Below are positions 4,474-21,659 of a DNA stretch of 21,941 nucleotides, piece after piece (the first letter of the stretch is position 1; each line of letters opens with the position of its first letter). This stretch comes from a virus. The DNA is taken from the IMG/VR virus record IMGVR_UViG_3300010885_018307, positions 1-21,941 of that record. One strand, 5' to 3'. Both the position numbers and the translations under genes were made by a program. The notes below the pieces were generated by a model. It was not told the origin of the DNA and did not search any database. It saw only the letters and a program-made list of their open reading frames with translations.

Positions 4474-4809
4474 ATGGAAGATTTAGAGAAAGCATTAGAA
4501 TTTGCCAATTATCAATCTACACTAAAACAACAGAAAGATATTCTTAAACAAAAATTTAAAGACGACTGTATATATGCATATAATGGGGGATTATTTTCTC
4601 CGAACATAGAATGGCTATCGGCAATATACAATATCAAAGAAGAAAATCAATGGGTGATAGATATAAACGGTAATCCAATTTGGATAGAAAATATTAAAGA
4701 GTTTCATCGTTTAGCCTATGAAAATTTTATGTCAGCGATTGCAAAATTTGGCGAGACACACTCCGATATTAAAAAACAACGTTCTGTAAAATCATTGGTA
4801 GGTTTATGA
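4474..4809 (+). CDS. Conserved phage hypothetical protein (111 aa)
   Basis: I know no function for this protein. Residues 1-35 are a Lys/Gln-rich helix (ALEFANYQSTLKQQK), followed by a YNGGLFSPN turn and a more mixed C-terminal half. The layout, with an N-terminal helix, an xNGGxF motif and about 110 residues, recalls small proteins found after fibre genes in T4-like aquatic phages, where no function is assigned. There are no membrane segments and a single Cys. It has a well-spaced AAGGA ribosome-binding site, and its stop overlaps the ATG of the first glycosyltransferase by four bases. It therefore links the fibre genes to the modification genes in one transcription unit. Confidence 0.65.
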   Translation: MEDLEKALEFANYQSTLKQQKDILKQKFKDDCIYAYNGGLFSPNIEWLSAIYNIKEENQWVIDINGNPIWIENIKEFHRLAYENFMSAIAKFGETHSDIKKQRSVKSLVGL

Positions 4810-5615
4810 ATCAAGGATTTTTAGTTTTTGCTCACGATAATGAGCAGGTACAATATAGCCTTCTAGCAGGATGGCAAGCAAAAAGAATACATCACTGGTT
4901 AGACAAACCTGTGAGCATTGTTACAGATCATCAAACCTTAGAGAATTTAAAAAGATCAAATTTAGATAAAGAGTTTGACCATATTATTATCAACGATAGT
5001 ACCTCTAATCAAAAAAAGAAATATAGCGGTCAGAGTTTAAGTTTCCACAACATTGATAGATGTCTAAGTTGGGACCTTACACCCTACGACGAAACTATTG
5101 TAATAGATACCGATATAGCAATACAATCAGATAGATTAAACACATTATGGAATCATCAAGACGATATGTTGGTCTGTAGACAATCTAACGATTTATTTGG
5201 TCGTAAGTTTGTGGGATTTGATTATCTTTCTAATTACGGAATTAAATTTTATTGGGCAACTATATGTTACTTTAAAAAAACTGATACAACTAAAACATTT
5301 TTTGATACATGTTTGAGAATTAAACAAAATTATAATTGGTATTCATACGTTTACGATATCACATCTAATTACATTCGGAATGATCATATATGGTCTATAG
5401 CATTGCATGAGTTAGGCGGTAGTGCTAATTCTAATTGGGTATCAGATATACCGTTTAATCTTTACTATACATTAGATAAGGATAATATTGTATCGATGAC
5501 TGATAATTCTGTTATTGCTTTTGGTAATGATAAACTTGCTAAGATTGCTGATAGTGATTTACATGTAATGAATAAATTTAGTTTACTAGATAAAATTCAA
5601 AGAGAGCTAATATGA
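4806..5615 (+). CDS. GT-A-like glycosyltransferase, copy 1 of tandem pair (269 aa)
   Basis: A nucleotide-sugar-dependent transferase is suggested by the N-terminal beta strand GFLVFAHD and by a DxD-type metal and sugar-nucleotide motif, Asp101-Thr-Asp103, in ETIVIDTDIAI. In GT8-like and GT2-like enzymes this pair binds Mn2+ and the donor phosphate. The following gene shares the PYDET(I/V) strand before the DxD motif, a WNH motif after it, and a CYFKK motif, so the two arose by duplication. There is no signal peptide, so it acts in the cytoplasm. Acceptor and sugar are unknown; the neighbouring fibre genes make fibre or surface-glycan modification a reasonable guess. It starts and ends with four-base overlaps. 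Confidence 0.7.
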   Translation: MNQGFLVFAHDNEQVQYSLLAGWQAKRIHHWLDKPVSIVTDHQTLENLKRSNLDKEFDHIIINDSTSNQKKKYSGQSLSFHNIDRCLSWDLTPYDETIVIDTDIAIQSDRLNTLWNHQDDMLVCRQSNDLFGRKFVGFDYLSNYGIKFYWATICYFKKTDTTKTFFDTCLRIKQNYNWYSYVYDITSNYIRNDHIWSIALHELGGSANSNWVSDIPFNLYYTLDKDNIVSMTDNSVIAFGNDKLAKIADSDLHVMNKFSLLDKIQRELI

Positions 5616-6340
5616 GTCGAGGTTATCTAATATTTGCCCAAGGAAAATACATAGAGATGGCCAAACTTCTATCTAAAAGTATTTCTAAAACACAAAGCAA
5701 TATTACCAATGTTACTATTATTACAGAGTCATACAGTGATAATGTAATGCTTGATAGAACTAAAGCATATGAATTAAGTCCCTATGATGAAACAGTATTA
5801 TTAGATGCTGATATGATTTTCTTAGATGATGTTAGTCATTGGTGGAATCATTTGTCTAAATTTCCCTTGTTAATTACCAGTAAGGTTAAAACTTATAGAG
5901 ACGAATGGGTTATGTATAGTCCATATAGAAAAACGTTTGTTAGTAATGATTTACCTAATTGTTATAGTGCATTTTGTTATTTTAAAAAGGATCCTCAGGT
6001 CGCAGAGTTCTTTAAATTATTAGAAAGTATAATTTTAAATTGGGATGAATGGACTATGCTTTATGCTCTAGAGGACCGCCAACAATGGCCTAGTATAGAT
6101 CTTGCCATGGCAATTGCTGTTAAAATACTTGATTTAGATGTTACCAATAAGTTAGACTATCCTACATTTACACATATGAAATCGGGATGTCAGGGTTGGG
6201 GGTATTATGACGAAATATGGCGAAAACAACTAGGAATTTATATTTCTAATGATCGATTAAGATTGGGTAATTATTTGCAATCTGGAATATTGCATTATGT
6301 AGATAAGGAAGTATCAAATGAACTATTGCGTTTATTTTAA
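5612..6340 (+). CDS. GT-A-like glycosyltransferase, copy 2 of tandem pair (242 aa)
   Basis: The N-terminal strand GYLIFAQG is followed by a DxD motif, Asp65-Ala-Asp67, in ETVLLDADMIF. The protein is a divergent copy of the upstream gene, with SPYDET, WWNH and CYFKK in the same order, but it is shorter between the first strand and the DxD motif (64 residues before it against 100). A shorter insertion before the metal site suggests a different donor or acceptor. A late HMKSGCQGWG segment could carry the C-terminal histidine typical of GT8-like enzymes (family knowledge, not verified). Its ATG overlaps the previous stop by four bases. The next gene begins 23 bases before its stop. Confidence 0.7.
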   Translation: MSRGYLIFAQGKYIEMAKLLSKSISKTQSNITNVTIITESYSDNVMLDRTKAYELSPYDETVLLDADMIFLDDVSHWWNHLSKFPLLITSKVKTYRDEWVMYSPYRKTFVSNDLPNCYSAFCYFKKDPQVAEFFKLLESIILNWDEWTMLYALEDRQQWPSIDLAMAIAVKILDLDVTNKLDYPTFTHMKSGCQGWGYYDEIWRKQLGIYISNDRLRLGNYLQSGILHYVDKEVSNELLRLF

Positions 6341-6857
6341 AAGCTCGATGATGATAGAAAGAGTTACTTCCACACCGTTGGAAAGCAATGAACTGTCATA
6401 TATTATTATTTCTCCAGAAGAAACAGAAAACTTTCTCAGCGGTAACTGGTTATTAAGCAGTTATTTTGTTATATTAGATTCTCCGTTGGCTTATTCTGGA
6501 AAATTAGTAGACATTAGAAAATTCCGAGAAAAGAATAATGGTGTAGAAAATAAAATATATAGTATTCCAAAAAATGATAATACAACAAATATAAAAATTT
6601 ACCAAGATAAAACAAAAAAACAATGTACTATTAGAATAGACGATTGGACTAAACAACGTATCAATGCAGGTATTAACAATAACTTTATGGTTATAACTGC
6701 ATGTGTGATAGGTGATCCACATTTACCGTATTTTGTTTGGAATTTAAATCTCTCTGATCTAGTTGACAAAGATGTTAATATAACATATACAGGTACAGAT
6801 AACTTTGAATTCTTTACCAAAAAACTTTTTGATACATACTCACATGAATACATTTAA
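6318..6857 (+). CDS. Hypothetical protein between glycosyltransferases (179 aa)
   Basis: No family is recognised. The protein looks alpha/beta, lacks a DxD motif, membrane segments and cysteine clusters, and ends in an aromatic-rich segment (GDPHLPYFVWNLNL). I use the ATG at 6318 because AAGGAAG lies about six bases upstream, even though this overlaps the previous gene by 23 bases; later ATGs at 6345 and 6348 have no ribosome-binding site. Its 3' end overlaps the next glycosyltransferase by 14 bases. Its position inside a chain of overlapping transferase genes suggests an accessory role, such as an adaptor or acceptor-binding subunit. That is inference. Confidence 0.6.
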   Translation: MNYCVYFKSSMMIERVTSTPLESNELSYIIISPEETENFLSGNWLLSSYFVILDSPLAYSGKLVDIRKFREKNNGVENKIYSIPKNDNTTNIKIYQDKTKKQCTIRIDDWTKQRINAGINNNFMVITACVIGDPHLPYFVWNLNLSDLVDKDVNITYTGTDNFEFFTKKLFDTYSHEYI

Positions 6858-7749
6858 TCTAGCAGAAATAGACTGCATTTTCATCAGTTACGATGAACCT
6901 AATGCAGAAAAAAACTATGCAGACTTATTAAACAAGGCACCATGGGCTAAACGAGTGCATGGTGTTAAGGGCAGTGATGCCGCACACAAGGCAGCGGCTC
7001 AATTATCAGACACTGATCGATTTATTACTGTAGATGCCGATAATATTGTAGACCCTAATTTTTTTAACCTATCATTAGACGATAACGGCAAACAATTTTC
7101 ATGGTGCGGAAAGAATTATGTTAATGGGCTAGTATACGGCAATGGTGGTCTCAAATGTTGGACTAAAGATTATGTCATGAACATGCGAACTCATGAGGTA
7201 GCTGAAGATTCTTCTAGCCAGGTAGACTTTTGTTGGAACGAGCAATATCAACAAATGGCTAATGTATATTCAATAAGTTATATTAATAGTACCCCACTTC
7301 AGGCATGGAGGGCGGGATTCCGTGAAGGTGTTAAGATGACATTAGATAACGGGATAAAACAAAATTTAGTTAATCCTAAAAAACAAATTGTAAGACGTAA
7401 TTATCAACGATTGTTAATTTGGCAAACTATAGGAGCAGATGTTGATCAAGGTCTTTGGGCAATATATGGTGCTCGATTGGGTTGCTACATGACTAATTGT
7501 ACCGATTGGGATTACACTCAGGTTAGAGATTTTGAATATCTAAATGAGTTGTTTAAGGAAAAATCACAAGAAGACTTATTAGATAAAATACAAATGCTAG
7601 GCAACATTCTACAACAAAAATTAAACCTACCATTAAGTTTTTTTAATCCCATGCAAAGTAAATTTTTTAAAGACGTATGGACTAATCCTCCTAGGTACAA
7701 TCATATGGTCAAAGAGTTAGATACCAATTGGGATGTTCTTGACCTATGA
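6844..7749 (+). CDS. GT-A-like glycosyltransferase, single-domain copy (301 aa)
   Basis: The fold signature is IDCIFISYDEPNAEKNY near the start and a DxD-type motif, Asp64-Ala-Asp66-Asn, in ITVDADNIVDP. Between them lies KRVHGVKGSDAAHKAAA, repeated almost unchanged in the next gene (RINGVKGxxxAHMAAA), so the two are paralogues. A G(Y/N)GG(L/V)K loop and a W(R/K)(A/S)(G/A)FRE motif are also shared. I start at the ATG at 6844; the longer frame to 6805 would need a TTG start. No clear ribosome-binding site precedes it, which fits coupling to the overlapping upstream gene. Sugar and acceptor cannot be told. Confidence 0.7.
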   Translation: MNTFNLAEIDCIFISYDEPNAEKNYADLLNKAPWAKRVHGVKGSDAAHKAAAQLSDTDRFITVDADNIVDPNFFNLSLDDNGKQFSWCGKNYVNGLVYGNGGLKCWTKDYVMNMRTHEVAEDSSSQVDFCWNEQYQQMANVYSISYINSTPLQAWRAGFREGVKMTLDNGIKQNLVNPKKQIVRRNYQRLLIWQTIGADVDQGLWAIYGARLGCYMTNCTDWDYTQVRDFEYLNELFKEKSQEDLLDKIQMLGNILQQKLNLPLSFFNPMQSKFFKDVWTNPPRYNHMVKELDTNWDVLDL

Positions 7750-8918
7750 GAATAATTGATCCAGAACTTGTTGCATCGATAAAATGGAACGGTGACTCTA
7801 AAGCATATGATCAACAATTAAGTGAGTTATGTAAGGATGGTCAACATTTTATTATCATTAACCCAGAATTAAAAGGTGATGTGCTAAGTTTAATAAATGT
7901 AGATATTCCACTAAACGATAATTGTATAAAATATAAATCTGGTGAAGGATGGATAGCTAAAAGATTCCCCCCCAATTGGAACGGACGTACACAAATTATT
8001 CAGCTTAATGTTAAACCCGTTAGATCTATTATTAATAATTTTGTCGATTGGGATTCTCCAAGCCTAATAAACTATTCACCAAACGCTTGGGATTTAAAAT
8101 ACACTAACATATGGGTATACGATCATTCATTAACTGGCGGTAAGGATGTAGATGCTGTTATATACGAGTATATACCAACTTCTCAAGGAAGAAAGATAAT
8201 AGGTAAAATTAATACTCTTGATATTCCAAAAAAACATGATGTTTTCTTTTTAAGTTATAAAGAAAAGGATGCTGAAGATAACTGGCATAGATTACAATTC
8301 ATTTGCCCGGATGCAAAAAGAATAAACGGAGTAAAAGGAATTCTTAATGCACATATGGCGGCAGCAAACTCTTCTACTACTGATATGTTTTATGTAGTTG
8401 ATGCTGATGCATATATTGTAGATGATTTTAAATTTGATTTTGTTCCATATATACAGGATAGGAGACATGTACATATTTGGCATAGTATTAATCCTATTAA
8501 TGATTTAGAATACGGGTACGGAGGAGTTAAGTTATTTCCAAAGTGTGGTTTGTTAGATAACAAAAAAAACTTAATCGACGTTAGTACATCATTAGGCGAT
8601 GTACGTGTAATAGAAAAACTAGCCTGTGAAACAAAATTTAATACAGATCCGTTTAATACTTGGAAAAGTGCATTTAGAGAATGTGCTAAATTATCATCAA
8701 AAATTATTAAAAATCAAAAGAATACAGAAACAACATATCGATTAGAACAATGGATCAACAAAGGATCAAATAAACTATTTGGAGAATATAGTATAGCAGG
8801 CGCTATTGCAGGAAAAGAGTTTGGCGAGAATACAACCGACTTATTCCTCATTAACAATTTTGAATGGTTGCAGAAAAAATTCCTCAAACATTATCCTCAA
8901 GTAAATATTAGACTATGA
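7746..8918 (+). CDS. GT-A-like glycosyltransferase with N-terminal extension (390 aa)
   Basis: Residues from about 163 onward repeat the upstream gene: HDVFFLSYKEKDAEDNW, RINGVKG, Asp219-Ala-Asp221 in VVDADAYIVDD, GYGGVK and WKSAFRE. The first about 160 residues are extra, with no recognised domain. They contain several short beta-strand-like stretches and two Trp-rich patches, and may be an acceptor-binding or dimerisation module. A tandem duplication plus domain gain is the simplest reading. The two DxD proteins may add successive sugars to one acceptor (inference). Start and stop are both in four-base overlaps with neighbours. Confidence 0.7.
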   Translation: MRIIDPELVASIKWNGDSKAYDQQLSELCKDGQHFIIINPELKGDVLSLINVDIPLNDNCIKYKSGEGWIAKRFPPNWNGRTQIIQLNVKPVRSIINNFVDWDSPSLINYSPNAWDLKYTNIWVYDHSLTGGKDVDAVIYEYIPTSQGRKIIGKINTLDIPKKHDVFFLSYKEKDAEDNWHRLQFICPDAKRINGVKGILNAHMAAANSSTTDMFYVVDADAYIVDDFKFDFVPYIQDRRHVHIWHSINPINDLEYGYGGVKLFPKCGLLDNKKNLIDVSTSLGDVRVIEKLACETKFNTDPFNTWKSAFRECAKLSSKIIKNQKNTETTYRLEQWINKGSNKLFGEYSIAGAIAGKEFGENTTDLFLINNFEWLQKKFLKHYPQVNIRL

Positions 8919-10147
8919 ACATCCCACCAAAATTATGTGTACTTCCATGGATACACCTTAATATAGAACCATCGGGTATTGTACAGCCTTGTTGTATGAT
9001 GACAGATCAAAATTATATTGCAGGAGATCTTAATACACAAACTATAGAAGAAATATGGAATGATAAGCCATTAAAAAATCTAAGAAAAGAAATGTTAGCA
9101 GGAGAAGCTCCAAAAGCCTGTACTAAGTGTTACAACGCAGAAGCGGCTACTGGTCTTAGTAATAGAATACATAACAATAGGAATTTTAACTCTAAATTAA
9201 AATCTATTCCTATTATTACTAAAGAAGACGGCCACACCGACGATATAGATCTAAGATATTGGGACTTTAGATTCAGTAACATCTGTAATTATAAATGTAG
9301 AAGTTGCGGTCCACGATTCAGTTCTACATGGATACCTGATGCTATTAAATTAGGTTATTTCTCAGAGGAAGAAGGTAAAAAAGTTATTTCAATTACAGAA
9401 ATAGATAATCAATCTCATTTAGACTTTTTAGAAAAATATGTTAATGTAGTAGAACATATATATTTTGCCGGTGGGGAACCATTGATTATGGATGAACATT
9501 ACAAGATATTAGATATGCTTGTAGCTAAGAATAGATATGATGTTGTTATCAAATACAATACAAACTTATCAACATTTAAACATAAAAAATATAATGTGTT
9601 AGACTATTGGGATAAATGGGTGCCAAACTTACAAATTTGGCCAAGCATTGATGAGATTGGAGATCGTGCAGAGCTTATTCGTAGTGGAACTAATTGGAAT
9701 AATGTAGAACAAAATTTATGTACACTTGTTGAACACAAATTTAATGTTCGACCCGGTATTACTGTAGGTGCTTGGAATGTATTTAGACTGCCGGAAATAA
9801 TTCAACATTTAACTGATATAGGTGTAATAGTACCTAAACATAAAAACTTTTATTTTAATATGTTAGTTAATCCACAACAATATCATATGCAGATTCTCAG
9901 TGACGATCATAAATTAGAGATCCACAAAAAACTTTCAAAATTTATTGATTCGTATAATTCGACATATCAAACTAATATCGATCATGAGTTTTCATATGTT
10001 ATGTCTGAGCTTCAAAAACCACATATGCCTCTTATGGCTAGAAAGTTTGTTTACGTTAGCGATGAATTAGATCGTGTACGTAATGAAAGCATTTATAAAA
10101 CTATTCCGGAAATTGCATATTTAAAAGAACAATATGGAAATAGATAA
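8915..10147 (+). CDS. Twitch-domain radical SAM protein (410 aa)
   Basis: Residues 1-75 form a cysteine-rich twitch/SPASM-like segment: Cys8 in CVLPWIHL, Cys26-Cys27 after PSGIVQP, the GDL and EIW landmarks, then Cys69-x-x-Cys72. The radical SAM core follows with Cys124-x3-Cys128-x2-Cys131 binding the [4Fe-4S] cluster, and GGEP at 186-189 for SAM binding. The auxiliary segment is placed before the core instead of after it. Such enzymes modify peptides, sugars or cofactors through a 5'-deoxyadenosyl radical. Substrate is unknown. The gene sits between the glycosyltransferases and a methyltransferase-like gene, overlapping both. It would need Fe-S loading, for which the phage carries iscU, iscA and erpA-like genes. 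Confidence 0.85.
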   Translation: MNIPPKLCVLPWIHLNIEPSGIVQPCCMMTDQNYIAGDLNTQTIEEIWNDKPLKNLRKEMLAGEAPKACTKCYNAEAATGLSNRIHNNRNFNSKLKSIPIITKEDGHTDDIDLRYWDFRFSNICNYKCRSCGPRFSSTWIPDAIKLGYFSEEEGKKVISITEIDNQSHLDFLEKYVNVVEHIYFAGGEPLIMDEHYKILDMLVAKNRYDVVIKYNTNLSTFKHKKYNVLDYWDKWVPNLQIWPSIDEIGDRAELIRSGTNWNNVEQNLCTLVEHKFNVRPGITVGAWNVFRLPEIIQHLTDIGVIVPKHKNFYFNMLVNPQQYHMQILSDDHKLEIHKKLSKFIDSYNSTYQTNIDHEFSYVMSELQKPHMPLMARKFVYVSDELDRVRNESIYKTIPEIAYLKEQYGNR

Positions 10148-10679
10148 AGACGCATTTAGTAGTGGACAGATTACTAGTAAACTTTGGCTGTGCGAAGAAT
10201 TAGAATCCACAGGATGGAATAGTTTAGAAACTTGGATCTACGGAGGCTGGTACGGATTAACGGCTTTCTTATTGTTAAGCCGCGGAACCTTTATTGTTGA
10301 TAAGATTCGAAGTTATGATATAGATTTGTCCTGTGAACCAATTGCAGATATGATTAACGAAAATTGGGTATGGCAAGACTGGAAATTTAAAGCATTTAGT
10401 GAAGATTGTAATCAAACAATACCTTTAGCCTGTGACTTAATTATCAATACAGCTACTGAACATTTTGATAACATGGCATGGTGGAATAATATTCCCGTTG
10501 GCAAACGTATAGTTTTACAGGGAAACAATATGAGACATGAGCAACATGTAGATGTTACAAATACCTTAGAAGATTTTTATAAAAAATTTCCATTAGGAGA
10601 AGTTGTATTTCAAGGCGAGAAAGAATTTGTATATCCTGATTGGTCTTTTAAACGATTTATGTTAATAGGAAAAAAATAA
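10134..10679 (+). CDS. Small class I methyltransferase-like protein (181 aa)
   Basis: The sequence order fits a compact Rossmann methyltransferase. A glycine loop in YGGWYGLTAFLLL occupies the place of motif I. An acidic residue in RSYDIDLSCEPIADM marks the end of strand 2 that would hold the SAM ribose. NTATEHFDNMAWW follows, where motif IV would sit. The motif I glycine pattern is atypical, so SAM binding is not certain. No target-recognition domain is present, and at 181 residues it is a minimal fold. It starts 14 bases inside the radical SAM gene and its TAA overlaps the next ATG by one base, so it is part of the same chain and may act on the same product. Confidence 0.6.
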   Translation: MEIDKDAFSSGQITSKLWLCEELESTGWNSLETWIYGGWYGLTAFLLLSRGTFIVDKIRSYDIDLSCEPIADMINENWVWQDWKFKAFSEDCNQTIPLACDLIINTATEHFDNMAWWNNIPVGKRIVLQGNNMRHEQHVDVTNTLEDFYKKFPLGEVVFQGEKEFVYPDWSFKRFMLIGKK

Positions 10680-11374
10680 TGTTAATACCTCCAGGAATAA
10701 GTGGTCGTCCTCCAGTATTTGATGCATCTATTGTTGATTTAGAAACATTGGTATTAGAAACATCATTATTAGCGTTAGGAGATTTTGAACCATTAGATTA
10801 TAAAATTGATACCGCATTGTTTATGTCTGATATCAAACAGTATTCAAACGATTGGATAGATTATCTACCAAGAACTGATAGACCAAATAATCGAAAAGGA
10901 TTATCATTAACTAACTATCCGAGTTGGGGGCATACCAAGTGTCCTAGTGTTCCAGAAGCTATAATGGAACTGCAACGGATTCCCAGCGAGTTAGAATTTA
11001 GTGAAAAAACTGAGGTATACAATAACTGTAATAGTCTACATCATTTTTTAAATGATTGGGAACCATTAGGTAGGACATTTTTAGTTAAGTCAGACATAGG
11101 AGGCTATTTTGTTCCTCACAGAGATTATCCAACTATTCCCAGAACTTCATTTAGGTTAATTGCATTTCTTAATAATTGTGGACCCACTGATTATGATTGG
11201 TTAATGGATAGTCGTAAAGCTGAAATTGAACCAGGTAGGGTATATTATGTTAATACTAGAAAAACTCATAGAACAATTAGTTGGGTTAATGATAGTATAC
11301 ATTTAATATGTAATATACCGTTTACATCATCTAATGTATCTAAAGTAATAGCACATCTATTACATAGACATTAA
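10679..11374 (+). CDS. Aspartyl/asparaginyl beta-hydroxylase-like 2OG-Fe(II) oxygenase (231 aa)
   Basis: This is a cupin-fold oxygenase that uses Fe(II) and 2-oxoglutarate. The iron triad is visible as His147-x-Asp149 (VPHRDYP) and His197 (KTHRTISW). The segment between them (FRLIAFLNNCG, EIEPGRVYYVNTR) fits the beta-hydroxylase core. Family members hydroxylate Asp or Asn side chains or small molecules. The N-terminal about 100 residues are not recognised. It closes the plus-strand chain that begins at the fibre genes. Its TAA shares bases with the stop of the convergent 2OG gene on the other strand, so two enzymes of the same broad class face each other tail to tail. Confidence 0.75.
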   Translation: MLIPPGISGRPPVFDASIVDLETLVLETSLLALGDFEPLDYKIDTALFMSDIKQYSNDWIDYLPRTDRPNNRKGLSLTNYPSWGHTKCPSVPEAIMELQRIPSELEFSEKTEVYNNCNSLHHFLNDWEPLGRTFLVKSDIGGYFVPHRDYPTIPRTSFRLIAFLNNCGPTDYDWLMDSRKAEIEPGRVYYVNTRKTHRTISWVNDSIHLICNIPFTSSNVSKVIAHLLHRH

Positions 11375-11910
11375 GATGAACAAATAACTAGATGTATTCT
11401 AGGTTCTGATCCTGCGTTATAAACAAAATGTTTATGTCTGGTATCAATCTTATAAAAATGGCCATCTTTCGGAACGTGATAACATTTTGCTACTTCTTCT
11501 ACATCGTCTGTTGAGAATCCAAATAATGCTCCGGGATTGGTATCAAGTACAAGATGATATCGAATATCAAAATCAAAATGTATACTCAATCCAGTTTTAG
11601 GCATTTGCCTCATAAACCTAATTCTTCCGGTTTTAAAGTTTTCTAACTTTTCTAGTTCTTCTATAACAGTTTGTGTATATGTAGGGACTGGCCAATTCCA
11701 TAAAGAAAAATCACTTTCGTTGGCCAGCCGTTCTCCTGTTAGAGAAAACAACCCACCAATAGCATCTTTCCAAATATTATCAGCGTTAGGTCTATGTTTT
11801 ATACCTATTTGATTATGTGGTATCCAATTTCCTGTATTCAGGATATTATCTAAATCAGTTTGAACTTTATCTAAGTCTACGGCTAGATTAAGTTTTGTTA
11901 TATACATCAT
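11371..11910 (-). CDS. Second Asp/Asn beta-hydroxylase-like 2OG-Fe(II) oxygenase (179 aa)
   Basis: Iron ligands are His111-x-Asp113 (SIHFDFD) and His161 (HKHFVYNAG), and Arg171 (EPRIHLV) is placed to hold 2-oxoglutarate. This complete set suggests an active enzyme. It is shorter than the convergent neighbour and the two are not close copies, so separate substrates are likely. The N-terminal about 90 residues hold a GLFSLTGE segment of unknown role. Two ATGs in a row begin the frame; the first makes an ATGA overlap with the QueC-like gene upstream, so translation is coupled. It is the last gene of the long minus-strand block. Confidence 0.78.
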   Translation of the reverse strand: MMYITKLNLAVDLDKVQTDLDNILNTGNWIPHNQIGIKHRPNADNIWKDAIGGLFSLTGERLANESDFSLWNWPVPTYTQTVIEELEKLENFKTGRIRFMRQMPKTGLSIHFDFDIRYHLVLDTNPGALFGFSTDDVEEVAKCYHVPKDGHFYKIDTRHKHFVYNAGSEPRIHLVICSS

Positions 11911-12551
11911 AGTTGCCCAGAATCTTCTAAATTAAGTTGCTCTAATGCCCACGATCGTTCAATGCAATTAAAACATTTACCGCATCTGCCTAAAGTTTTT
12001 TCTGTGCAACTATGAGTTAATGATAGCAAATCCATTCTATCAAATATTCTATAAAGGTCCATGGTATTTCTTTTATCAACTAAGGCAAATGGGCAGTATG
12101 CCACAGAATAGTTTATTGAATCAGGTCTAGCAGGGTACTCCCAATCGATCTGTAGTTCATCTTTTGGGGGTACTTGTTGACTTCCATATACCACAAAATC
12201 TACTAGATTGGAAAGGAACGCTTCATCTCTTCCACTACTTACTCTCTGACTATGATGCAAGTTTGGATTTCCTACTATTGCCGGTGCCGGCATATCAAGT
12301 TCAAGCAGGTGATTTATATAACTTACTAATATAGTAGCGTAGGATTTTGCGCCGTCTTCAATTGGTACAGTAAGAGGAATAATCTCACTAGGATTATTAT
12401 TTTCTTTATTAAGTTTAGCTATTAGATATAATAAAATTGCGCTATCTGCTCCACCCGAAACCAACACACCAATTCTTTTAGCTGTTGGCAAATTAATTTC
12501 AATTGTCTTTTTAAAATGTCCAAACCCGGTTTCGACTACATAATTTTTCAT
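11907..12551 (-). CDS. QueC-like PP-loop ATPase (about 214 aa)
   Basis: The N-terminal PP-loop SGGADSA, preceded by the strand IGVLV, binds ATP and adenylates a carboxylate. The C-terminus carries a zinc site, a Cys in SCTEKTLGR and then CGKCFNC followed by Arg, as in 7-cyano-7-deazaguanine (preQ0) synthase QueC. Length also fits QueC, apart from about 20 extra N-terminal residues. QueC turns 7-carboxy-7-deazaguanine and ammonia into preQ0. No queD, queE, folE or transferase partner is in the window, so the real substrate may differ: another PP-loop amidation or sulfur-insertion reaction is possible. I use the ATG at 12551 because it gives the ATGA overlap usual here; the ATG at 12560 with GAGGAG close upstream is a real alternative. 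Confidence 0.7.
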   Translation of the reverse strand: MKNYVVETGFGHFKKTIEINLPTAKRIGVLVSGGADSAILLYLIAKLNKENNNPSEIIPLTVPIEDGAKSYATILVSYINHLLELDMPAPAIVGNPNLHHSQRVSSGRDEAFLSNLVDFVVYGSQQVPPKDELQIDWEYPARPDSINYSVAYCPFALVDKRNTMDLYRIFDRMDLLSLTHSCTEKTLGRCGKCFNCIERSWALEQLNLEDSGQL

Positions 12552-13249
12552 AATAACCATTTCTCCTCGGCATATCTTACCAATTTATCATATTTTTTAT
12601 TATAAATCAATTCTAGCTGTTTTATTATTTGTTTTAAAATTATAAAAGAATTGTTAATAAAAACATCGTTGGGAGTTTTAAACAATCTTAGGTTTTTCCA
12701 ATAAAATCCCAACGAGTCTTGTTCCCATTGACTTGTCATATTTAAACTAAGCAACATTGAGCCGCATCCATATTTGGCAGTCAATTCTGCCATATGTGGA
12801 AATACTATAGAAAATTGATTAATAAAATTGTGTATAATTGGCTCTGGATTAGAGGATGATATTACATCAAAAAACGCTGTGCCGGGTTCATTATTTGGTC
12901 TGTTAGTTTCTGTGTATAGATAATCTATACCATTATGATTAACAATATCTTCAGTGATGAATTGTTCTACTCTAAATTGACCGGTTTCTTTAGATATATT
13001 CATCATATCTTTAAGCATGGTGTTATCGTTTAGATGATACCATCGGACTAATCTAAATACTTTTCCATCTACAAGACTAAAGTAGGTAACACTGCTTTTT
13101 CCAAATATGTAGTAACCAGTTGAATCAATTTCCCAACTGTAATTACAATCGCCGCAATTATCATTAGGGCATCTAGGAAGATAATTGTAGAAAGCATCGA
13201 CTTCTTTAGTCTCGCACCTACTGAGCCTACGAAGTAATTCTGAAAGCAT
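12548..13249 (-). CDS. Unknown protein with N-terminal Cys cluster, paralogue of the gene at 13496 (233 aa)
   Basis: No family is recognised. The N-terminus has Cys12, Cys27, Cys32 and Cys35, the last three in a CPNDNCGDC block that could bind zinc. The C-terminal half shares a segment with the 256-residue protein encoded at 13496: a (T/E)KYG(C/T)G(S/T)M motif followed 20 or so residues later by SxG(F/Y)YW. I read this as distant paralogy. No membrane segments or catalytic signature are seen. It lies next to the QueC-like gene, so a role as its partner or substrate is possible but only inferred. The short gap (4 bases) to the upstream gene shows co-transcription. Confidence 0.65.
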   Translation of the reverse strand: MLSELLRRLSRCETKEVDAFYNYLPRCPNDNCGDCNYSWEIDSTGYYIFGKSSVTYFSLVDGKVFRLVRWYHLNDNTMLKDMMNISKETGQFRVEQFITEDIVNHNGIDYLYTETNRPNNEPGTAFFDVISSSNPEPIIHNFINQFSIVFPHMAELTAKYGCGSMLLSLNMTSQWEQDSLGFYWKNLRLFKTPNDVFINNSFIILKQIIKQLELIYNKKYDKLVRYAEEKWLL

Positions 13250-13253
13250 AATA

Positions 13254-13496
13254 TTAGGATTGGTTTGCGTCTTCTTCTACTATTGTTCTTAAATTCCACA
13301 TACCATCTGTACCTATTAGCCCGCTTATACCATCGGATGTCATTACTAATCCGGAATCAAATGTTGCACGAAGTTTGTAATTTAAATCGGGACCAGTCCA
13401 TTGACGGACAATATTTGTAATTAATAGTGTTGGGCATTGTTTATCAAAGACAAGTTGATCATCTTTAAAAACTTCTAATCTAAAGAAATTTTTCAT
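13254..13496 (-). CDS. Hypothetical protein (80 aa)
   Basis: Not recognised. It is a compact, mostly beta-strand sequence (KNFFRLEVFKDDQLVF) with one Cys and a Gly-rich C-terminal part (GISGLIGTDGMW). No signal peptide or membrane segment is seen. It lies between the two distant paralogues of 256 and 233 residues and overlaps the first by one base (TAATG), so the three may form a unit. CGGAG about nine bases before the ATG is a usable ribosome-binding site, and an AATAAATA late box lies 41 bases upstream. Confidence 0.65.
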   Translation of the reverse strand: MKNFFRLEVFKDDQLVFDKQCPTLLITNIVRQWTGPDLNYKLRATFDSGLVMTSDGISGLIGTDGMWNLRTIVEEDANQS

Positions 13497-14266
13497 TATT
13501 TTGACTCCGAAATTGAATTAAAAAATTGATCGACAATATTTATTGCAGTTTGTTTATGGTCAACAGCATCATTAGCAGATGCATTATTAATATCTAACAT
13601 CCCTTTAATTAGTTTATATTTTTTAGAATTTACATGTTTAGCATTAGCATATCCTATTCTAAGACATCTTTCATAGCTGTACGTGTAATCTGTTAAAAAT
13701 GTCCAATAGTAGCCTGACGAATTTTTTAATATATTCCCAGCACAAAATATTTTTGGAGTCATCCCCGTGCCATATTTTTCTGTGATAGTTTTTAAAGCAG
13801 TTATTATTGGTGCTTGTTCTATTAATGTACTAACAAATTCATCGGAGAATCCTTGATCTATACTTGTATCCCATATATTAACTCCGTATTCCCCGGTAGG
13901 AGGAGCTGTGACTATGAAACTCCAATATTCTTCATCTATCATTATAGTTTCTTGATAAAATGGAGCTTCTGTTCTAAATTTCTTTGATTCGTAGCCTGCA
14001 ACATATAATTCTCTAAATATATTCCAATCATGTATTCCAAAATTATTATATATAGAATAAGTTTGTCCTTCACTACCATACAAAGTGACTTCGGTGTACG
14101 TATAGTGGTCGCATAATACATACAGACCTTCCGAAGTTTCTTCCCATACTGTTGTCCATTTTCCTGTGGGACATTTAATTCCGCCATGAAAATCATCACG
14201 AACTTTAATCGATTTCCAATATTCTTTTTTAGTTTTTAAAGCATTTAATTCAGTTTCATACGGCAT
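13496..14266 (-). CDS. Unknown protein, distant paralogue of the gene at 12548 (256 aa)
   Basis: The sequence is rich in Tyr and Trp and looks beta-strand heavy (residues 30-110), with no catalytic motif I can name. EKYGTGMTPKIF and NSSGYYW correspond to segments in the 233-residue protein two genes downstream, but the N-terminal Cys cluster of that protein is absent here. The ribosome-binding site AGGA lies upstream of the ATG at 14266, with a GCTAAATA box 24-31 bases before it. A structural or binding role fits the composition, but this is a guess. Confidence 0.65.
   Translation of the reverse strand: MPYETELNALKTKKEYWKSIKVRDDFHGGIKCPTGKWTTVWEETSEGLYVLCDHYTYTEVTLYGSEGQTYSIYNNFGIHDWNIFRELYVAGYESKKFRTEAPFYQETIMIDEEYWSFIVTAPPTGEYGVNIWDTSIDQGFSDEFVSTLIEQAPIITALKTITEKYGTGMTPKIFCAGNILKNSSGYYWTFLTDYTYSYERCLRIGYANAKHVNSKKYKLIKGMLDINNASANDAVDHKQTAINIVDQFFNSISESK
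13537..13544 (-). promoter_or_regulatory. Possible late promoter before the 80-residue gene
   Basis: AATAAATA on the minus strand is a full match to NATAAATA, inside the 3' end of the upstream gene. A start near 13531 would give a leader of about 35 bases with CGGAG before the ATG at 13496. Chance matches are plausible in such AT-rich DNA. Confidence 0.4.
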
Positions 14267-14297: not shown

Positions 14298-14963
14298 TTA
14301 TCTATTACAACCTGTTGCAAGGTCTTTTTCAGTGAACCAAAGATCAGCCATTGGAGTTTGTGGATTAAAACACGGGGCTCCTAATGTATAATGAACAATT
14401 TTTGCAGAATTATTAACCCCATATTCGTCAGATAACCAATTCCATTCTTTTGGTAGTGCGCCTACACGATCATCGTTTAACCACGAGAAGCGGTGGAGTT
14501 CACTGCCCGAGGATTGTTGGATGAACTCGGGAGTAAGTTTCCTGTTAGGAAAGCTACTACAATTCCACAAAATAACACTAGACCAATTTTTTCGAGGATA
14601 GTCTTCATTTTTTGCTCCTAGGTATTTTACAGGCATCCGAGTTTTGTAATCGTGTTTGACCACTTGAACATCTTTGTAAAAATCTTTTAAATTCCATAAC
14701 TCTGTTATATCGGTATTAACTATAACATCACAATCCATATAGATTGCCCAGCCGGTGTAATTACATAGATAGGGTACTAAAAATCTACTATAACAAAATT
14801 CATTACTTGAATCGTTATGTGTTTCTTTATACTCTGTTAGTAGAGATAATTTTAATGGATTGATACTTAATGGTGTTGAGCTATTTCTAATTAAACTGTG
14901 ACTAGCTACAGAATAACAGATAGCTTCTTTTGGATCATATCCAATGAATACAGGGATTGTCAT
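14298..14963 (-). CDS. GT8-like glycosyltransferase (221 aa)
   Basis: IPVFIGYDPKEAICYSVASHSL at the N-terminus is the first strand and helix of many GT8-like phage and bacterial transferases. The DxD motif is Asp77-Cys-Asp79 in IYMDCDVIVNTDI, and the C-terminal KIVHYTLGAP supplies the late His that helps bind metal in this group. NWSSVILWNC in the middle is also typical. The enzyme would transfer a sugar from a nucleotide-sugar in the cytoplasm; acceptor unknown. It is not a close copy of the plus-strand transferases, so it probably came in separately. It lies between the putative internal head proteins and a pair of unknown genes. Confidence 0.8.
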   Translation of the reverse strand: MTIPVFIGYDPKEAICYSVASHSLIRNSSTPLSINPLKLSLLTEYKETHNDSSNEFCYSRFLVPYLCNYTGWAIYMDCDVIVNTDITELWNLKDFYKDVQVVKHDYKTRMPVKYLGAKNEDYPRKNWSSVILWNCSSFPNRKLTPEFIQQSSGSELHRFSWLNDDRVGALPKEWNWLSDEYGVNNSAKIVHYTLGAPCFNPQTPMADLWFTEKDLATGCNR

Positions 14964-16973: not shown

Positions 16974-16996
16974 TTAAAATACAATCTATCATCATT

Positions 16997-17761
16997 ATGA
17001 ATTCATTTAAACATTCCGGAACCACAGGCGATTTAATTTATAGTTTACCAATTGTGAAACATTTGAATGGTGGTAACTTTTATTTACACCTAGATCAAAT
17101 TAATACAATCGGTATGCATTACTACGGAAATGCTCCTCAAGGATATCATCAAGGAAGAATGAATAAAAAAGATTTAGAGTTCTTAACTCCGTTTATGAAT
17201 TACCAATCATACATTACAGAATTTAGAGAACTATTAAAGACTGATGAGATTACACATAATTTGGACAGATTTAGAAAACCATTTGTAGGGCATCCTGGAA
17301 ATTATGTAGATCTATACGCAGATGTTTTTGGAATTAAAGATATCGGAGTTAAAAAACAATTACGTACACAACCTTGGCTTACTGCTCCTGTTAGTAAAGA
17401 TTTTCAAGGACGTATTATTGTTAATCGAACAGGTAGATGGGTTCCGCAAGAACTTAATACCAAATGGCAAGAATGGCGAGATCAAGACCTTGATCAAAAA
17501 GCATTGTTCATAGGACATCATGATGAATATAAAAACTTTATTCTTCAAACTAAATGGAGAGCAGAATATTGGCCAACTACTTCATTATTAGATGTTGCTG
17601 AAGCAATAAACAGCAGTGACTTCTTTATAGGCAATCAGTCGGCGGCATTAGCTATAGCAATTGGATTGGGCAAGACTTTTTGGTGCGAGGCACGTAGAGA
17701 TTTACCCACAGAACGCAATGAGTGCTATTTTCCCGATCAACCCGATGGTAATTATTTTTAA
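16997..17761 (+). CDS. GT-B glycosyltransferase, family 9-like (254 aa)
   Basis: FKHSGTTGDLIYSLPIVKHL at the start is the glycine-loop signature of heptosyltransferase-type (GT9) enzymes. SSDFFIGNQSAALAIAIGLGK in the last quarter is the donor-binding loop with the conserved Asn/Gln-Ser region. The protein is shorter than bacterial GT9 enzymes (about 320-350 residues), with a reduced linker. It would transfer a heptose or another sugar from a nucleotide-sugar. I start at the ATG at 16997; the longer frame to 16943 would need a TTG and adds residues unlike the family. There is no ribosome-binding site of note. It heads the second plus-strand modification cluster. Confidence 0.75.
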   Translation: MNSFKHSGTTGDLIYSLPIVKHLNGGNFYLHLDQINTIGMHYYGNAPQGYHQGRMNKKDLEFLTPFMNYQSYITEFRELLKTDEITHNLDRFRKPFVGHPGNYVDLYADVFGIKDIGVKKQLRTQPWLTAPVSKDFQGRIIVNRTGRWVPQELNTKWQEWRDQDLDQKALFIGHHDEYKNFILQTKWRAEYWPTTSLLDVAEAINSSDFFIGNQSAALAIAIGLGKTFWCEARRDLPTERNECYFPDQPDGNYF

Positions 17762-17764: not shown

Positions 17765-19309
17765 ATGCAATCACCTATAATTTTAAAACAAGAAAATACT
17801 GTAATTGATCAACTACCTAAAGGTCATGCAGTAATTCTTACAGGTTATTATGAATTAACAAATTATAGAGGAACAGGTGCTTATCGAATTGCCCACGTGT
17901 TACGAGAGCAAGGTTGGGATATTGAAGTATTGGACTACATCTTATTCATAGAATTAGAACAAATACGTCAATTTATGAAATCTAGAATAAGACCAGATAC
18001 TAAATGGATTGGCATTAGCTATTCTTGGTTAGTGATTAGTCCCAAAATAAATGAACTGATAAGAGAAATTAGATCCTGGTACCCCGATCTATTATTCATC
18101 GTAGGAGGCCAATTTAATTTTAGAGAAAGTTTAAATTGTGATTACTATGTCATGGGCTACGGCGAAAAGGCCATCAAGGCTATATTAGATTATAAATTTG
18201 GTAATGGAGAATTACCCAAAGCTGAAGCCAAATTTGAAGGACTATATATAGATGCTTATAAAGATTATCCGGCTACCCCTTATAAAGATTATAATGTTAC
18301 GTTTCAAGATAACGACTATATAGTTCCAGAAAATCATACTACTATTGAACTTAGTCGAGGTTGTAAATTTGCCTGCAAATTCTGTAGTTTTCCGTTTATT
18401 GGTATGAAAAATAGTACCACTGCCGAGGAAGAGTCACTGTATCGAGAATTAATGACCAACTACGACACGCACGGTCTCACCGTATATGCAATAGCAGATG
18501 ATACATTAAACGATCGAACAGAAAAACTTATCACTTTAAAAAACGTGGTAAATCGATTAGACTTTACTCCAGACTTCAAAGCATTTGTAAGATTAGATCT
18601 GTTGAAAGCACATCCTGAACACTTTGAACTACTTGCAGAAGCTAGAGTTTGGATGCACTTCTATGGTATAGAAACATTTAATAGGACTTCGGGTAAAATA
18701 ATAGGTAAGGGCATGGATCCCGATATTATGAAATCATTGCTGTTGAAAATGAAACAGTATATGAATACTAATGTTGGTATGTATAGAGCTACCGCTAGTT
18801 TAATTGCTGGTCTTCCACATGAGACCATTGACAGTATGGTTGAAACTAACAAATGGTTTGTAGACAATTGGAGTGATCAAAGTTATGGTTGGCAATTATT
18901 AACTCTTTACAAGGATCAAGACTCGTTATCTGCATTTAGTCTTGATATGGAAAAATTTGGGTATAGTGCTTATGACGAAGATGTTAGTACCGTTATACAA
19001 TCTGCTAACTTATCAGAATTTTCTTGGAAGAATCAATATACCAACATAAAAGAATGTGACGAACTTGTTAGTAAGTTTCAAAATAGACCAGAATATTTAG
19101 ATGTATTTGCCACAGCTAGATATCTTAGTTTATATAAACAAGATTATCAAAAGGTATTATCAATGGTACGTCCAATAGCGTTTTCTCGTAGAAATATCGG
19201 GACACACAGCACAGACTTAATGGACTACAGAAAACGTTCATTGACGTTGACCAGAGAATATATTTCTAAAAAGTTATCCTCAATAACGCTTAACAATAAA
19301 TTAATATAA
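17765..19309 (+). CDS. Radical SAM protein with B12-binding-like N-terminal domain (514 aa)
   Basis: Residues about 20-180 resemble a cobalamin-binding Rossmann fold: HAVILTGYYELTNYRGTGAYRIAHVL, then WIGISYSWLV and DLLFIVGGQFN. The radical SAM core begins near 195 with Cys200-x3-Cys204-x2-Cys207, followed by AIADDTLNDR and a partial TIM barrel to about 400 (FYGIETFNRTSGKIIGKGM, SLIAGLPHET). This is the architecture of class B methyltransferases and BchE-like enzymes. The DxHxxG motif that donates a lower ligand to B12 is not seen, as in many members. It could methylate carbon or phosphorus centres or rearrange rings; the target is unknown. It starts three bases after the GT9-like stop. Confidence 0.8.
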   Translation: MQSPIILKQENTVIDQLPKGHAVILTGYYELTNYRGTGAYRIAHVLREQGWDIEVLDYILFIELEQIRQFMKSRIRPDTKWIGISYSWLVISPKINELIREIRSWYPDLLFIVGGQFNFRESLNCDYYVMGYGEKAIKAILDYKFGNGELPKAEAKFEGLYIDAYKDYPATPYKDYNVTFQDNDYIVPENHTTIELSRGCKFACKFCSFPFIGMKNSTTAEEESLYRELMTNYDTHGLTVYAIADDTLNDRTEKLITLKNVVNRLDFTPDFKAFVRLDLLKAHPEHFELLAEARVWMHFYGIETFNRTSGKIIGKGMDPDIMKSLLLKMKQYMNTNVGMYRATASLIAGLPHETIDSMVETNKWFVDNWSDQSYGWQLLTLYKDQDSLSAFSLDMEKFGYSAYDEDVSTVIQSANLSEFSWKNQYTNIKECDELVSKFQNRPEYLDVFATARYLSLYKQDYQKVLSMVRPIAFSRRNIGTHSTDLMDYRKRSLTLTREYISKKLSSITLNNKLI

Positions 19310-19327: not shown

Positions 19328-20098
19328 ATGAAAAAACCTATAGGTATTATACAAAGTCGAGGTCTAGGAGATATCCTAATGACCCTTCCTATAGCACGAT
19401 ATTATTTGGACCATTTGGACTACGATGAAGTAGTATGGCCAATCTGCGAAGAATTTTGGTCATCGGTAAAAGAAACGGCCAGTTGGGTGCATTGGATCCC
19501 AATCCCCACAGATACTAAAGGTGATTTCTTTTGGACAGAACCTAACAAACGTCTTAAAGCTCTTAATGTCTCAGACATAGTTTGTTTGTATCAAAGTCTT
19601 AATATACGTCCAGAACTGAGTAAGGTGCCTTTCTTCCAATTACAGAAATTTGATGAGTTTAAGTATTCTAAGGCAGGTGTTCCTTTTTTACGTAAATGGA
19701 CATTGGCTGAGTGTATTACTAGAAACCCAGAACGTGAAAAAAATCTTTACGATAAATTGGTTAAATCAGAGAAATACGCTGTGATACATTCAGAGGGTAG
19801 CACATTTAGTTTTAGACCAGACACTAGCAGTTTTCCCGAAGATTGGCAACAGATTGAGATCACAGAACAAACAGATTGTATATTTGACTGGCTTAAAATT
19901 ATTGAAGGTGCTGAAGCTGTAGTTATGATTGACTCAGTGTTTTCTAATATGGTTGATCAATTAAAAATTGAAGGTGACAAATATTGGTTGCCACGTAGTC
20001 ATATACATCTTACTCCGGTACTGGGCACAGAATGGACTATACTTGAACCACCACCCGGATCAACTGCCGCACAGAAGATATTCTCTGTGGGTGCTTGA
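19328..20098 (+). CDS. GT-B glycosyltransferase, family 9-like, second copy (256 aa)
   Basis: IGIIQSRGLGDILMTLPIARYYLD is a classic heptosyltransferase-type N-terminus, with the Gly-x-Gly-Asp loop. EAVVMIDSVFSNMVDQL near 200 corresponds to the donor-site loop of GT9 enzymes. At 256 residues it is again shorter than cellular relatives. It has a clear AAAGGGA ribosome-binding site, unlike its neighbours, so it may be translated at a different level. It is only distantly similar to the gene at 16997, so the two are unlikely to be redundant. Its TGA overlaps the next ATG by one base. Confidence 0.72.
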   Translation: MKKPIGIIQSRGLGDILMTLPIARYYLDHLDYDEVVWPICEEFWSSVKETASWVHWIPIPTDTKGDFFWTEPNKRLKALNVSDIVCLYQSLNIRPELSKVPFFQLQKFDEFKYSKAGVPFLRKWTLAECITRNPEREKNLYDKLVKSEKYAVIHSEGSTFSFRPDTSSFPEDWQQIEITEQTDCIFDWLKIIEGAEAVVMIDSVFSNMVDQLKIEGDKYWLPRSHIHLTPVLGTEWTILEPPPGSTAAQKIFSVGA

Positions 20099-21057
20099 TG
20101 ATACCTATCAAAAGCATAGAAAATACTACAGGGGTCATGCATCTCACTTGGATTATTAATAATATATGCAATAGGGCTTGTAATTATTGCCCGGATAGTT
20201 TACATAATGGTAAAAACCATCACTACGAATGGCATCACGTAGAGAAATTTATAACAACTTTACAGAGTCGACATGACCGTATACATGTAACCATCAGTGG
20301 GGGTGAACCCACTATGAGTCCTTGGCTTATTGATCTAATTGACCTACTAAGATCTAAAAACAATACTGTGGGTATTACCAGCAACGGAGCACGTACCCTA
20401 CGATATTACAAAGAACTAGCACCAAAATTACGTTATATATGTTTAAGTTACCATCCAGAAGAAGAAGACGCTGAGTTCTTGGAAAAAGCTATAGAATGTT
20501 CTAGATATACACTGACTAAAATTAATTTTATGATGCCGGCAACACATTGGGATCAATGTATAAAAATGTATGACCGAATTAAACAAGAATCTGCGTTGAC
20601 CTACGAACCTGTGAAGATCACAGAATGGCATCCACATCCACACGGGCTTGCCAGTAGAAATTATAGTCCAGAACAACTTGAATGGTTTAAAAATAATAAT
20701 GGAAAGTTTGCTTCTATAGAACTATGTAAACAATACGATCAACAGATTAATACTCCTACACCATTATTAAGTACAATTAACTTTCAAACAGGATCAGAAA
20801 GATTAGATCCCACATATTTGATTAATACCAATCAACATCATTTTACCGGATGGACCTGTTGGCAGGGCATAGAAAGTATATATGTGCAGTATACAGGACA
20901 GATCGGTGCTAGTAATTGTTACCAGAATCGTGATCTAGGATGGATACAACAACTCGACGACATCAAATGGATTCAAGAACCTGTAGAATGTAAACAGGTT
21001 GACTGTATATGTTCCAGCGACATTTTTATAACTAAAACAAATCCTATAACAATATGA
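20098..21057 (+). CDS. Radical SAM protein with C-terminal auxiliary Cys cluster (319 aa)
   Basis: The core motif is Cys24-x3-Cys28-x2-Cys31 (CNRACNYC), followed by SGGEPTMSPW, which binds SAM. Near the C-terminus come Cys residues in GWTCWQG, SNCYQN and the block ECKQVDCIC, enough to hold an auxiliary Fe-S cluster in a twitch/SPASM-like arrangement. This differs from the enzyme at 8915, whose cysteine segment is N-terminal. SPASM-type proteins often modify peptides, which makes a phage protein or a peptide product a candidate substrate. I use the ATG at 20098; one codon earlier is a TTG. It overlaps the gene after it by four bases. Confidence 0.85.
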   Translation: MIPIKSIENTTGVMHLTWIINNICNRACNYCPDSLHNGKNHHYEWHHVEKFITTLQSRHDRIHVTISGGEPTMSPWLIDLIDLLRSKNNTVGITSNGARTLRYYKELAPKLRYICLSYHPEEEDAEFLEKAIECSRYTLTKINFMMPATHWDQCIKMYDRIKQESALTYEPVKITEWHPHPHGLASRNYSPEQLEWFKNNNGKFASIELCKQYDQQINTPTPLLSTINFQTGSERLDPTYLINTNQHHFTGWTCWQGIESIYVQYTGQIGASNCYQNRDLGWIQQLDDIKWIQEPVECKQVDCICSSDIFITKTNPITI

Positions 21058-21659
21058 GCCATTTAAAATATAGACCCGACCTACCACATCCTCCCGAATG
21101 GGTTATTGCACAAGCGGAAAAAGAATGGCGTGAACGTGATATATTATTGGGCCCTGCTCAACTGACCAAAGATATTGTTAAAAATTTACCTTCAGAAGAT
21201 GATGGTATAAAATTTCGTAATCCGGACCCTGAAATTGATCTGGGTGATTGTGCAGAATTTTCTTTGATAAAGGCTGGAGAAGAAATTCAACAATGGTCTA
21301 AAGAATGGGTTGATCCCGAATGTAAGATTGGCATTGTTTTTATTAAAAATGGAATATACGTTGCACCACATCGAGATTTCCATCGTGTTCGTGCTATAAA
21401 TTATTGGATTAGTGTGGGCGGAGAACATGTAACCACTTGCTGGTGGAGAGAAACACTACCCAGATCTAGCAGTCTAAGTAAAGACATGCTGAGATTCTTT
21501 AGTAGACAATATCCTTACAGTAAATTGACAAAAATTGAAGAACATTGCATAGAAAATAATGTTTGGCATGAAATTGATGTTTCAGAGATACACTCTGTAG
21601 AAAATCTAGATATAAATCAATCACGTTGGGGATTGTCAATCAGTAAATTTGACCCCTAA
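21054..21659 (+). CDS. Third 2OG-Fe(II) oxygenase-like protein (201 aa)
   Basis: His106-Arg-Asp108 in VAPHRDFHRV and His180 in EIHSVEN can form the iron triad of a cupin-type oxygenase, and an Arg near 193 (QSRWGLSIS) could bind 2-oxoglutarate. The strand between them is INYWISVGGE. The overall pattern matches the Asp/Asn hydroxylase group loosely, so I hold this less firmly than the other two. The N-terminal about 90 residues are unassigned. It is the last gene of the second modification cluster and pairs with a radical SAM gene upstream, as in the first cluster. Confidence 0.65.
   Translation: MSHLKYRPDLPHPPEWVIAQAEKEWRERDILLGPAQLTKDIVKNLPSEDDGIKFRNPDPEIDLGDCAEFSLIKAGEEIQQWSKEWVDPECKIGIVFIKNGIYVAPHRDFHRVRAINYWISVGGEHVTTCWWRETLPRSSSLSKDMLRFFSRQYPYSKLTKIEEHCIENNVWHEIDVSEIHSVENLDINQSRWGLSISKFDP

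Follow-up and report, generated by a model that had tools for sequence, protein, structure and literature searches.

A fibre-linked gene island with a proposed role in building and editing a glycan, possibly on the tail fibre, in an uncultivated phage

Organization of the island

We analyzed the IMG/VR record IMGVR_UViG_3300010885_018307, a linear viral fragment of 21,941 bp that is the whole window of this study, with genes numbered g01 to g31 from left to right. The subject is an island of enzyme genes arranged in tight operons adjoining fibre genes (Table 1). It encodes three radical S-adenosylmethionine (radical-SAM) enzymes, three 2-oxoglutarate (2OG) oxygenase-like proteins, seven glycosyltransferase (GT)-like proteins, one methyltransferase-like protein, and one QueC-like protein. 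A close DNA match to the window was not found in the isolate-phage collection.

A preliminary description of this DNA had listed the same enzyme classes. The three radical-SAM proteins were recovered by family models (g14 by NF033640, g28 by the B12-binding and Radical_SAM models, and g30 by Radical_SAM), as was the QueC-like g18. For the other classes, the assignments held in part: g17 matched the Asp_Arg_Hydrox model, and g16 and g31 were read as 2OG oxygenases from the HxD...H motif; among the GT-like proteins, g22 matched a model, g09/g10 and g12/g13 were assigned indirectly, and g27/g29 were called by motif; the methyltransferase-like g15 was called from its motifs. No Pfam match was obtained for g15, g27, g29, or g31, and nothing usable resulted from comparing the g15 profile or the single sequences of g27, g29, and g31 with the PDB.

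The overlapping gene chains were evident, as eleven same-strand genes run from g06 to g16 with gaps of at most 21 nt, and 8 of the 10 junctions overlap. The description of 4806-21659 as one block did not hold, because 14981-16822 contains non-island genes encoding a DUF6321 protein, a three-segment membrane protein, and a SleB-type hydrolase. Of the virion genes said to flank that span, the fibres on the left are in place, and the virion-like open reading frame (ORF) on the right (21743-21940) lies outside the span and runs off the window end. Promoter-like and terminator-like sites in the window were no commoner than in shuffles; therefore, no claim on transcription is made from such sites.

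Table 1. Features of the island and its surroundings, with coordinates in the window.
Gene	Assignment	Coordinates	Strand	Basis or remark
IscU and two IscA-like	Iron-sulphur assembly genes	637..1697	-	PF01592 E 1e-51; PF01521 E 3e-18, 2e-14
g06	Fibre protein, C-terminal glycine-rich domain	1877..3529	+	Pfam Gly_rich_2 E 1e-16; PHROG tail families
g07	Fibre paralogue	3541..4452	+	Family F, at -5 of conserved cassette; profile matches in 75 loci
g08	Small fibre-linked protein	4474..4809	+	Conserved in 86 loci; alignment A12
g09	Glycogenin-like GT, GT8-type, DTD motif	4806..5615	+	Profile A4 to glycogenin-1, E 3.4e-8; conserved position
g10	Glycogenin-like GT, DAD motif, g09 paralogue	5612..6340	+	Profile vs PDB; relative near tail genes in cyanophage ACG-2014f
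g11	Conserved protein directly upstream of g12	6318..6857	+	Adjoins g12 in 75/85 loci
g12	GT-A-fold protein, cassette anchor	6847..7749	+	Predicted structure, pLDDT 92; GT-A matches; D63xD65
g13	g12 paralogue	7746..8918	+	GT-A fold by paralogy; fused to g12 in sister contig
g14	Radical-SAM enzyme, N-terminal twitch domain	8915..10147	+	NF033640 N_Twi_rSAM E 3e-106
g15	Methyltransferase-like	10134..10679	+	Motifs GGWYG, DID, INTSCEH (alignment A7); present in 36 loci
g16	2OG-oxygenase-like	10679..11374	+	HRD...H motif, no Pfam match; pairs with g18 relatives in other phages
g17	Aspartyl/asparaginyl beta-hydroxylase-like 2OG oxygenase	11371..11910	-	PF05118 (Asp_Arg_Hydrox) E 1.9e-9
g18	QueC-like PP-loop ATPase, zinc-type cysteines	11907..12560	-	PF06508, 25.6 bits vs cut-off 22
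g19	g21 paralogue	12548..13249	-	Alignment A8
g20	Small protein	13254..13496	-	Kept in sister contig
g21	g19 paralogue	13496..14266	-	Relatives in sister contig and L041; alignment A8
g22	GT8 glycosyltransferase	14298..14963	-	PF01501 E 5e-8
g27	GT9-like, motif only	16994..17761	+	Read directly
g28	B12-binding radical-SAM enzyme	17765..19309	+	PF02310 E 8e-10; PF04055 E 8e-11; relatives adjoin QueC-like and twitch genes
g29	GT9-like, motif only	19328..20098	+	Read directly; relative in L046 only
g30	Radical-SAM enzyme, C-terminal cysteine cluster	20095..21057	+	PF04055 E 9e-11; relatives follow g16-g18 in other phages
g31	2OG-oxygenase-like	21054..21659	+	HRD...H motif read directly

Conservation of the fibre-linked cassette

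An alignment search with g12 recovered at least 587 relatives among the IMG/VR viral contigs and 16 in GTDB genomes, and none in the isolate-phage collection. Conservation was counted over 87 distinct g12 loci, the denominator of each count being the loci with enough flank. The exact order g08-g09-g10-g11 ahead of g12 was found in 62 of 75 loci, g11 lay immediately upstream of g12 in 75 of 85, and a fibre of family F together with g08 preceded g09 in 51 of 70. Most loci had been picked by g12 or g14 similarity alone; therefore, the upstream gene order is independent evidence. The sister contig (L004/L023) retains most island genes at roughly 35-77% protein identity. In distant phages, the run from the fibre through g08, g09, g10, and g11 to g12 is retained, and the remainder of the island is swapped. 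T4-like gp23 was present in 9 of 22 cassette-type or twitch-array records.

The island is not a chance collection; the finding is real, organized, and widespread. The preliminary description had proposed a multi-step modification system, and had held that a lack of conserved co-occurrence in other phages would speak against it. Both the cassette and the enzyme palette do recur, and the proposal is well supported.

In the isolate cyanophage ACG-2014f (L137, 10763-15762), tail genes precede a 2OG oxygenase, a protein with a DNA methyltransferase annotation, and a g10-like GT, possibly a reduced version of the island.

Properties of the cassette glycosyltransferases

The AlphaFold2 model of g12, built from a 92-sequence alignment, reached a mean predicted local distance difference test (pLDDT) score of 92 and replaced a poor first prediction from 8 sequences (pLDDT 57). 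The model comprises a GT-A domain at residues 2-147 and a helical C-terminal part, and D63 and D65 of the DxD motif are invariant across the 92 sequences. The best Foldseek matches were the peptide S-glycosyltransferases SunS and ThuS and chondroitin polymerase, with the GT of mycobacteriophage Che8 among the neighbours. In the VIA-align comparison, B4GALNT1 aligned with Z 11.3 and a root-mean-square deviation of 3.0 over 139 residues, and Z 9-10 was obtained for WrtF, the capsid GT of PBCV-1, and R699, a collagen GT of mimivirus. As modelled, g12 has a GT-A fold with the DxD motif at the nucleotide-sugar site, and sugar transfer is its predicted activity. The Pfam scan of 41 g12/g13 members returned no GT family; a single OKR_DC_1 match among them was taken as chance. 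In the sister contig, g12 and g13 form one ORF of 577 amino acids (L004:6477-8210).

For g09 and g10, the best PDB match of the shared profile was glycogenin, over profile positions 5-110, with the DxD motif present. Pfam GT8 gave 0 matches across 39 members of the g09/g10 family, and g09 had no match in the isolate-phage collection. Glycogenin starts glycogen by self-glucosylation and is a protein-priming GT, and the likeness of g09/g10 to it suggests protein priming. The g11 profile matched nothing usable in the PDB. The position of g08 beside the fibres would fit a chaperone-like function.

Radical-SAM enzymes and their arrays

The g14 protein is a clear member of NF033640, scoring 355.9 bits (curated cut-off 170) over residues 5-402 of 410. 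The CxxxCxxC motif occurs in 258 of 258 full-length twitch relatives; in alignment A10, C124, C128, and C131 are invariant, and C8, C26, C27, C69, and C72 are nearly so. Most relatives are about 17-40% identical to g14, a divergence that fits different substrates over redundancy.

Twitch genes lay at most 8 kb downstream of g12 in 35 of 45 viral loci, a count slightly inflated by about ten loci that entered via g14, and at most 8 kb upstream in 0 of 39; the contrast between the two sides is independent of those ten. Where both flanks were present (21 loci), twitch genes were downstream only in 14 and upstream in none. Whole-record searches gave 17, 20, 19, and 20 twitch matches in records of 69, 59, 103, and 246 kb, some weak matches possibly being other radical-SAM genes and one gene possibly giving two matches. 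An array of as many as about 20 in one phage record is unusual. Twitch genes are absent from some cassette records, most of them of the g13 type.

A family of about 400 amino acids without a Pfam match (L057:10390-11601 and relatives) was seen in 26 twitch-array loci and is missing from the window. In the isolate Vibrio phage K566 (L040, 9316-26713), five twitch radical-SAM genes lie close to genes for nicotinamide and lipid A (PagP) functions; the K566/K567 island, which makes up most of this region, has been treated as a replaced anti-defence island (PMC12028318).

The QueC-like gene, its partners, and the cargo of relatives

The g18 protein matches the QueC family at the C-terminal zinc site, and profile A9 matched the structures of QueC, ThiI, and Cap9. 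It scored 18.5 bits against the QueC equivalog TIGR00364, whose cut-off is 150.3, and its PF06508 match is at the superfamily level only. A single-sequence search of the viral contigs with g18 gave no relative; the alignment search did find relatives. Among 58 distinct QueC-like loci, 28 have a radical-SAM gene nearby. In other phages, g16 relatives (54-61% identical) stand side by side with g18 relatives (45-48%), and in some cases a g30-like radical-SAM gene comes next. In a different phage group (L151-L166 and L192, at about 7-9.5 kb), the g16-like and g18-like pair lies downstream of ClpX-, HSP20-, and ClpS-like genes.

The variable part of the island in relatives encodes UDP-glucose/GDP-mannose dehydrogenase, GDP-mannose dehydratase/epimerase, cytidylyltransferases, DegT aminotransferase, hexapeptide transferase, O-methyltransferase, carbamoyltransferase, and further 2OG oxygenases. 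The cargo is almost entirely soluble, as two membrane segments were predicted in just one of the 318 distinct proteins. O-antigen rebuilding requires membrane proteins; therefore, an acceptor in the cytoplasm, for example a fibre, is the likelier target. Soluble enzymes might nevertheless modify lipid-linked intermediates.

Related enzyme sets were also found in bacteria. Contigs of Bdellovibrionota metagenome-assembled genomes (MAGs) (L130, L131, L132; G024:C9:75-99 kb) have g12, g15, and twitch genes without fibres or g08-g11. Two of the Bdellovibrionota contigs contain a QueC-like gene, and one, of 328 kb, an Asp/Arg-hydroxylase-like gene. This 328 kb contig was taken as chromosomal because inspection by eye suggested genes of lysine and pyrimidine biosynthesis in its flanks. 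Several other MAG contigs have the full fibre cassette and are probably phage contigs.

Proposed function and alternatives

Our favoured reading, put forward tentatively, is that the island is a phage system that builds and then chemically edits a sugar chain, most likely on the co-encoded tail fibre in the cytoplasm. We infer the substrate, the order of the steps, and the purpose as follows. The fibres g06/g07 would be made together with g08, and the first sugars would be put on the protein by the glycogenin-like g09/g10. The chain would then be extended by the GT-A enzymes g12/g13 and later by g22, g27, and g29. Its sugars would be altered by g14, g28, g30, the methyltransferase-like g15, the 2OG enzymes g16, g17, and g31, and the QueC-like g18, which would perhaps amidate a carboxylated sugar. 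The phage IscU/IscA-like proteins may provide iron-sulphur clusters to the radical-SAM enzymes, a plausible source of supply. The result would be shifted receptor binding or fibre shielding. The evidence leans to this reading by the conserved fibre-linked order, the one-sided twitch genes, the glycogenin likeness, the GT-A neighbours of g12, the nucleotide-sugar cargo, and the near absence of membrane proteins.

Several observations weigh against it. Nucleotidyltransferases share the GT-A fold and appear among the VIA-align matches of g12. The assignments of g16 and g31 as 2OG oxygenases, of g15 as a methyltransferase, and of g27 and g29 as GTs are putative and motif-based. The g16-g18 pair stands alone in other phages, apart from the GT cassette. 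The Bdellovibrionota sets lack fibres; therefore, the editing palette is not tied to them. The window thus joins units that also occur separately, which weakens the certainty of the fibre as sole target.

An alternative that we consider unlikely, and that ranks next, is that the enzymes change a host surface glycan (lipopolysaccharide or capsule) during infection and so block the adsorption of competing phages. This is the published reading for GT8-rich, radical-SAM-containing pelagimyophage islands (PMC7029224). It also agrees with the nucleotide-sugar enzymes among the cargo and with the position of the related Bdellovibrionota sets on chromosomes, beside GT2 and other glycan genes. However, the phage cargo is without flippases, polymerases, or undecaprenyl-phosphate transferases, the closest conserved neighbours are fibre genes, and the GTs are of the glycogenin-like priming type.

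Twitch/SPASM and B12 radical-SAM enzymes together with 2OG enzymes are typical of ribosomal peptide tailoring. By this parallel, the radical-SAM, 2OG, and QueC-like enzymes would act directly on the side chains of amino acids in the fibre or in a small peptide, with the GTs as a separate layer. The relation of g17 to aspartyl/asparaginyl hydroxylases and the occurrence of g16-g18 without GTs agree with such a role. We judge it improbable nevertheless, as a precursor peptide or leader-binding protein was not identified, and the twitch arrays accompany GTs and nucleotide-sugar genes in most loci.

It is very improbable that the locus is a loose hotspot, in which the fibre side gathers unrelated metabolic genes with no common pathway. 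The wide variation of the cargo among relatives and the non-island genes interrupting the island would be expected of a hotspot, but the g08-g12 order is fixed, the twitch genes are placed on one side, and the same enzyme families are reused.

The least probable alternative, and a remote one, is that the enzymes produce a modified nucleobase or hypermodified DNA as protection from host nucleases: GTs and 2OG enzymes are employed in phage DNA hypermodification, and g18 is QueC-like and g30 has weak QueE-like matches (45.7 bits, cut-off 260), but g18 falls far below the QueC equivalog cut-off, QueD, FolE, and transglycosylase were absent from the window's family matches, Tet_JBP was found in 0 of 22 relative records by a search without a positive control, and the island adjoins fibres.

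The preliminary description had left fibre proteins, surface glycans, and a peptide or nucleoside product as possible targets. The balance favours a glycan carried by the fibre or by some other cytoplasmic virion protein over O-antigen assembly, and a nucleoside or DNA product is unlikely.

A wider claim, which we regard as rather doubtful, is that widespread uncultivated T4-like phages combine the conserved fibre-linked GT cassette with diverging radical-SAM arrays, 2OG enzymes, and a QueC-like ligase to make a phage-specific, radical-edited fibre glycan. If true, a radical-SAM-edited viral glycoprotein would be described for the first time, and the fibre surface could be varied combinatorially without a change in fibre sequence. 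The host range of phages is usually put down to the sequence of their fibres; a common, conserved set beside the fibres that can build and edit glycans would place a further, chemical layer on host recognition and shielding, one that sequence-only models would miss. The locus is also an entry point to the uncharacterized twitch radical-SAM family, with its long arrays in phages and the same partners on Bdellovibrionota chromosomes. Isolates with part of the set make testing possible, namely the Vibrio phages K566/K567 (radical-SAM array) and cyanophage ACG-2014f (g10-like, 2OG, and methyltransferase genes).

Comparison with known systems

The closest known kind of island is the pelagimyophage host recognition cluster described in 2020, a large variable island beside the tail fibres of T4-like marine phages that contains GT8 enzymes, radical-SAM cassettes, rfaE, and UDP-glucose dehydrogenase, and for which a change of the host O-chain was inferred (PMC7029224). 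As in the window, fibres, GTs, and radical-SAM genes stand in one island. The cluster sits between VrlC and gp14 of a T4-like genome and its host is SAR11; the window is a 21.9 kb fragment. The preliminary description knew of no characterized phage pathway with this set, which holds for function; islands of fibres, GT8 enzymes, and radical-SAM cassettes had already been described. Relative to the accessible part of that report, our analysis adds the fixed core order, the one-sided arrays, the priming-like GTs, the soluble cargo, the g16-g18 unit, and the bacterial counterpart.

In the mycobacteriophage (Che8 type) system, phage GTs reportedly decorate virion proteins (PMC12619734). The likeness lies in the Che8 GT as a structural neighbour of g12; the Che8 target differs, being the capsid and tail tube. 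To our knowledge, no radical-SAM, 2OG, or QueC-like enzymes take part in mycobacteriophage virion glycosylation.

In mimivirus, a 2OG hydroxylase and GTs cooperate on collagen, a fibre-like viral protein (PMC9546862). This is a functional parallel, and R699 structurally matches the g12 GT-A domain. The mimivirus system differs in belonging to a eukaryotic virus, in its collagen repeats, and in having no radical-SAM enzymes; long Gly-X-Y repeats, looked for in the window's fibres as a parallel to mimivirus collagen, were essentially absent. Phage seroconversion gtr operons resemble the island in that phage GTs act on glycans, but they need the membrane proteins GtrA, GtrB, and Gtr, none of which was found here.

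Minor features of the window

The sister contig also retains the IscU/IscA-like genes. In the gene calls of the window, the two IscA ORFs overlap. The window IscU is 70-80% identical to the IscU of Acinetobacter-labelled and Salmonella-labelled phage records. At 15912-16822, in the middle of the island, the small three-segment membrane protein gene overlaps that of the SleB-type cell wall hydrolase, an arrangement that resembles a lysis pair.

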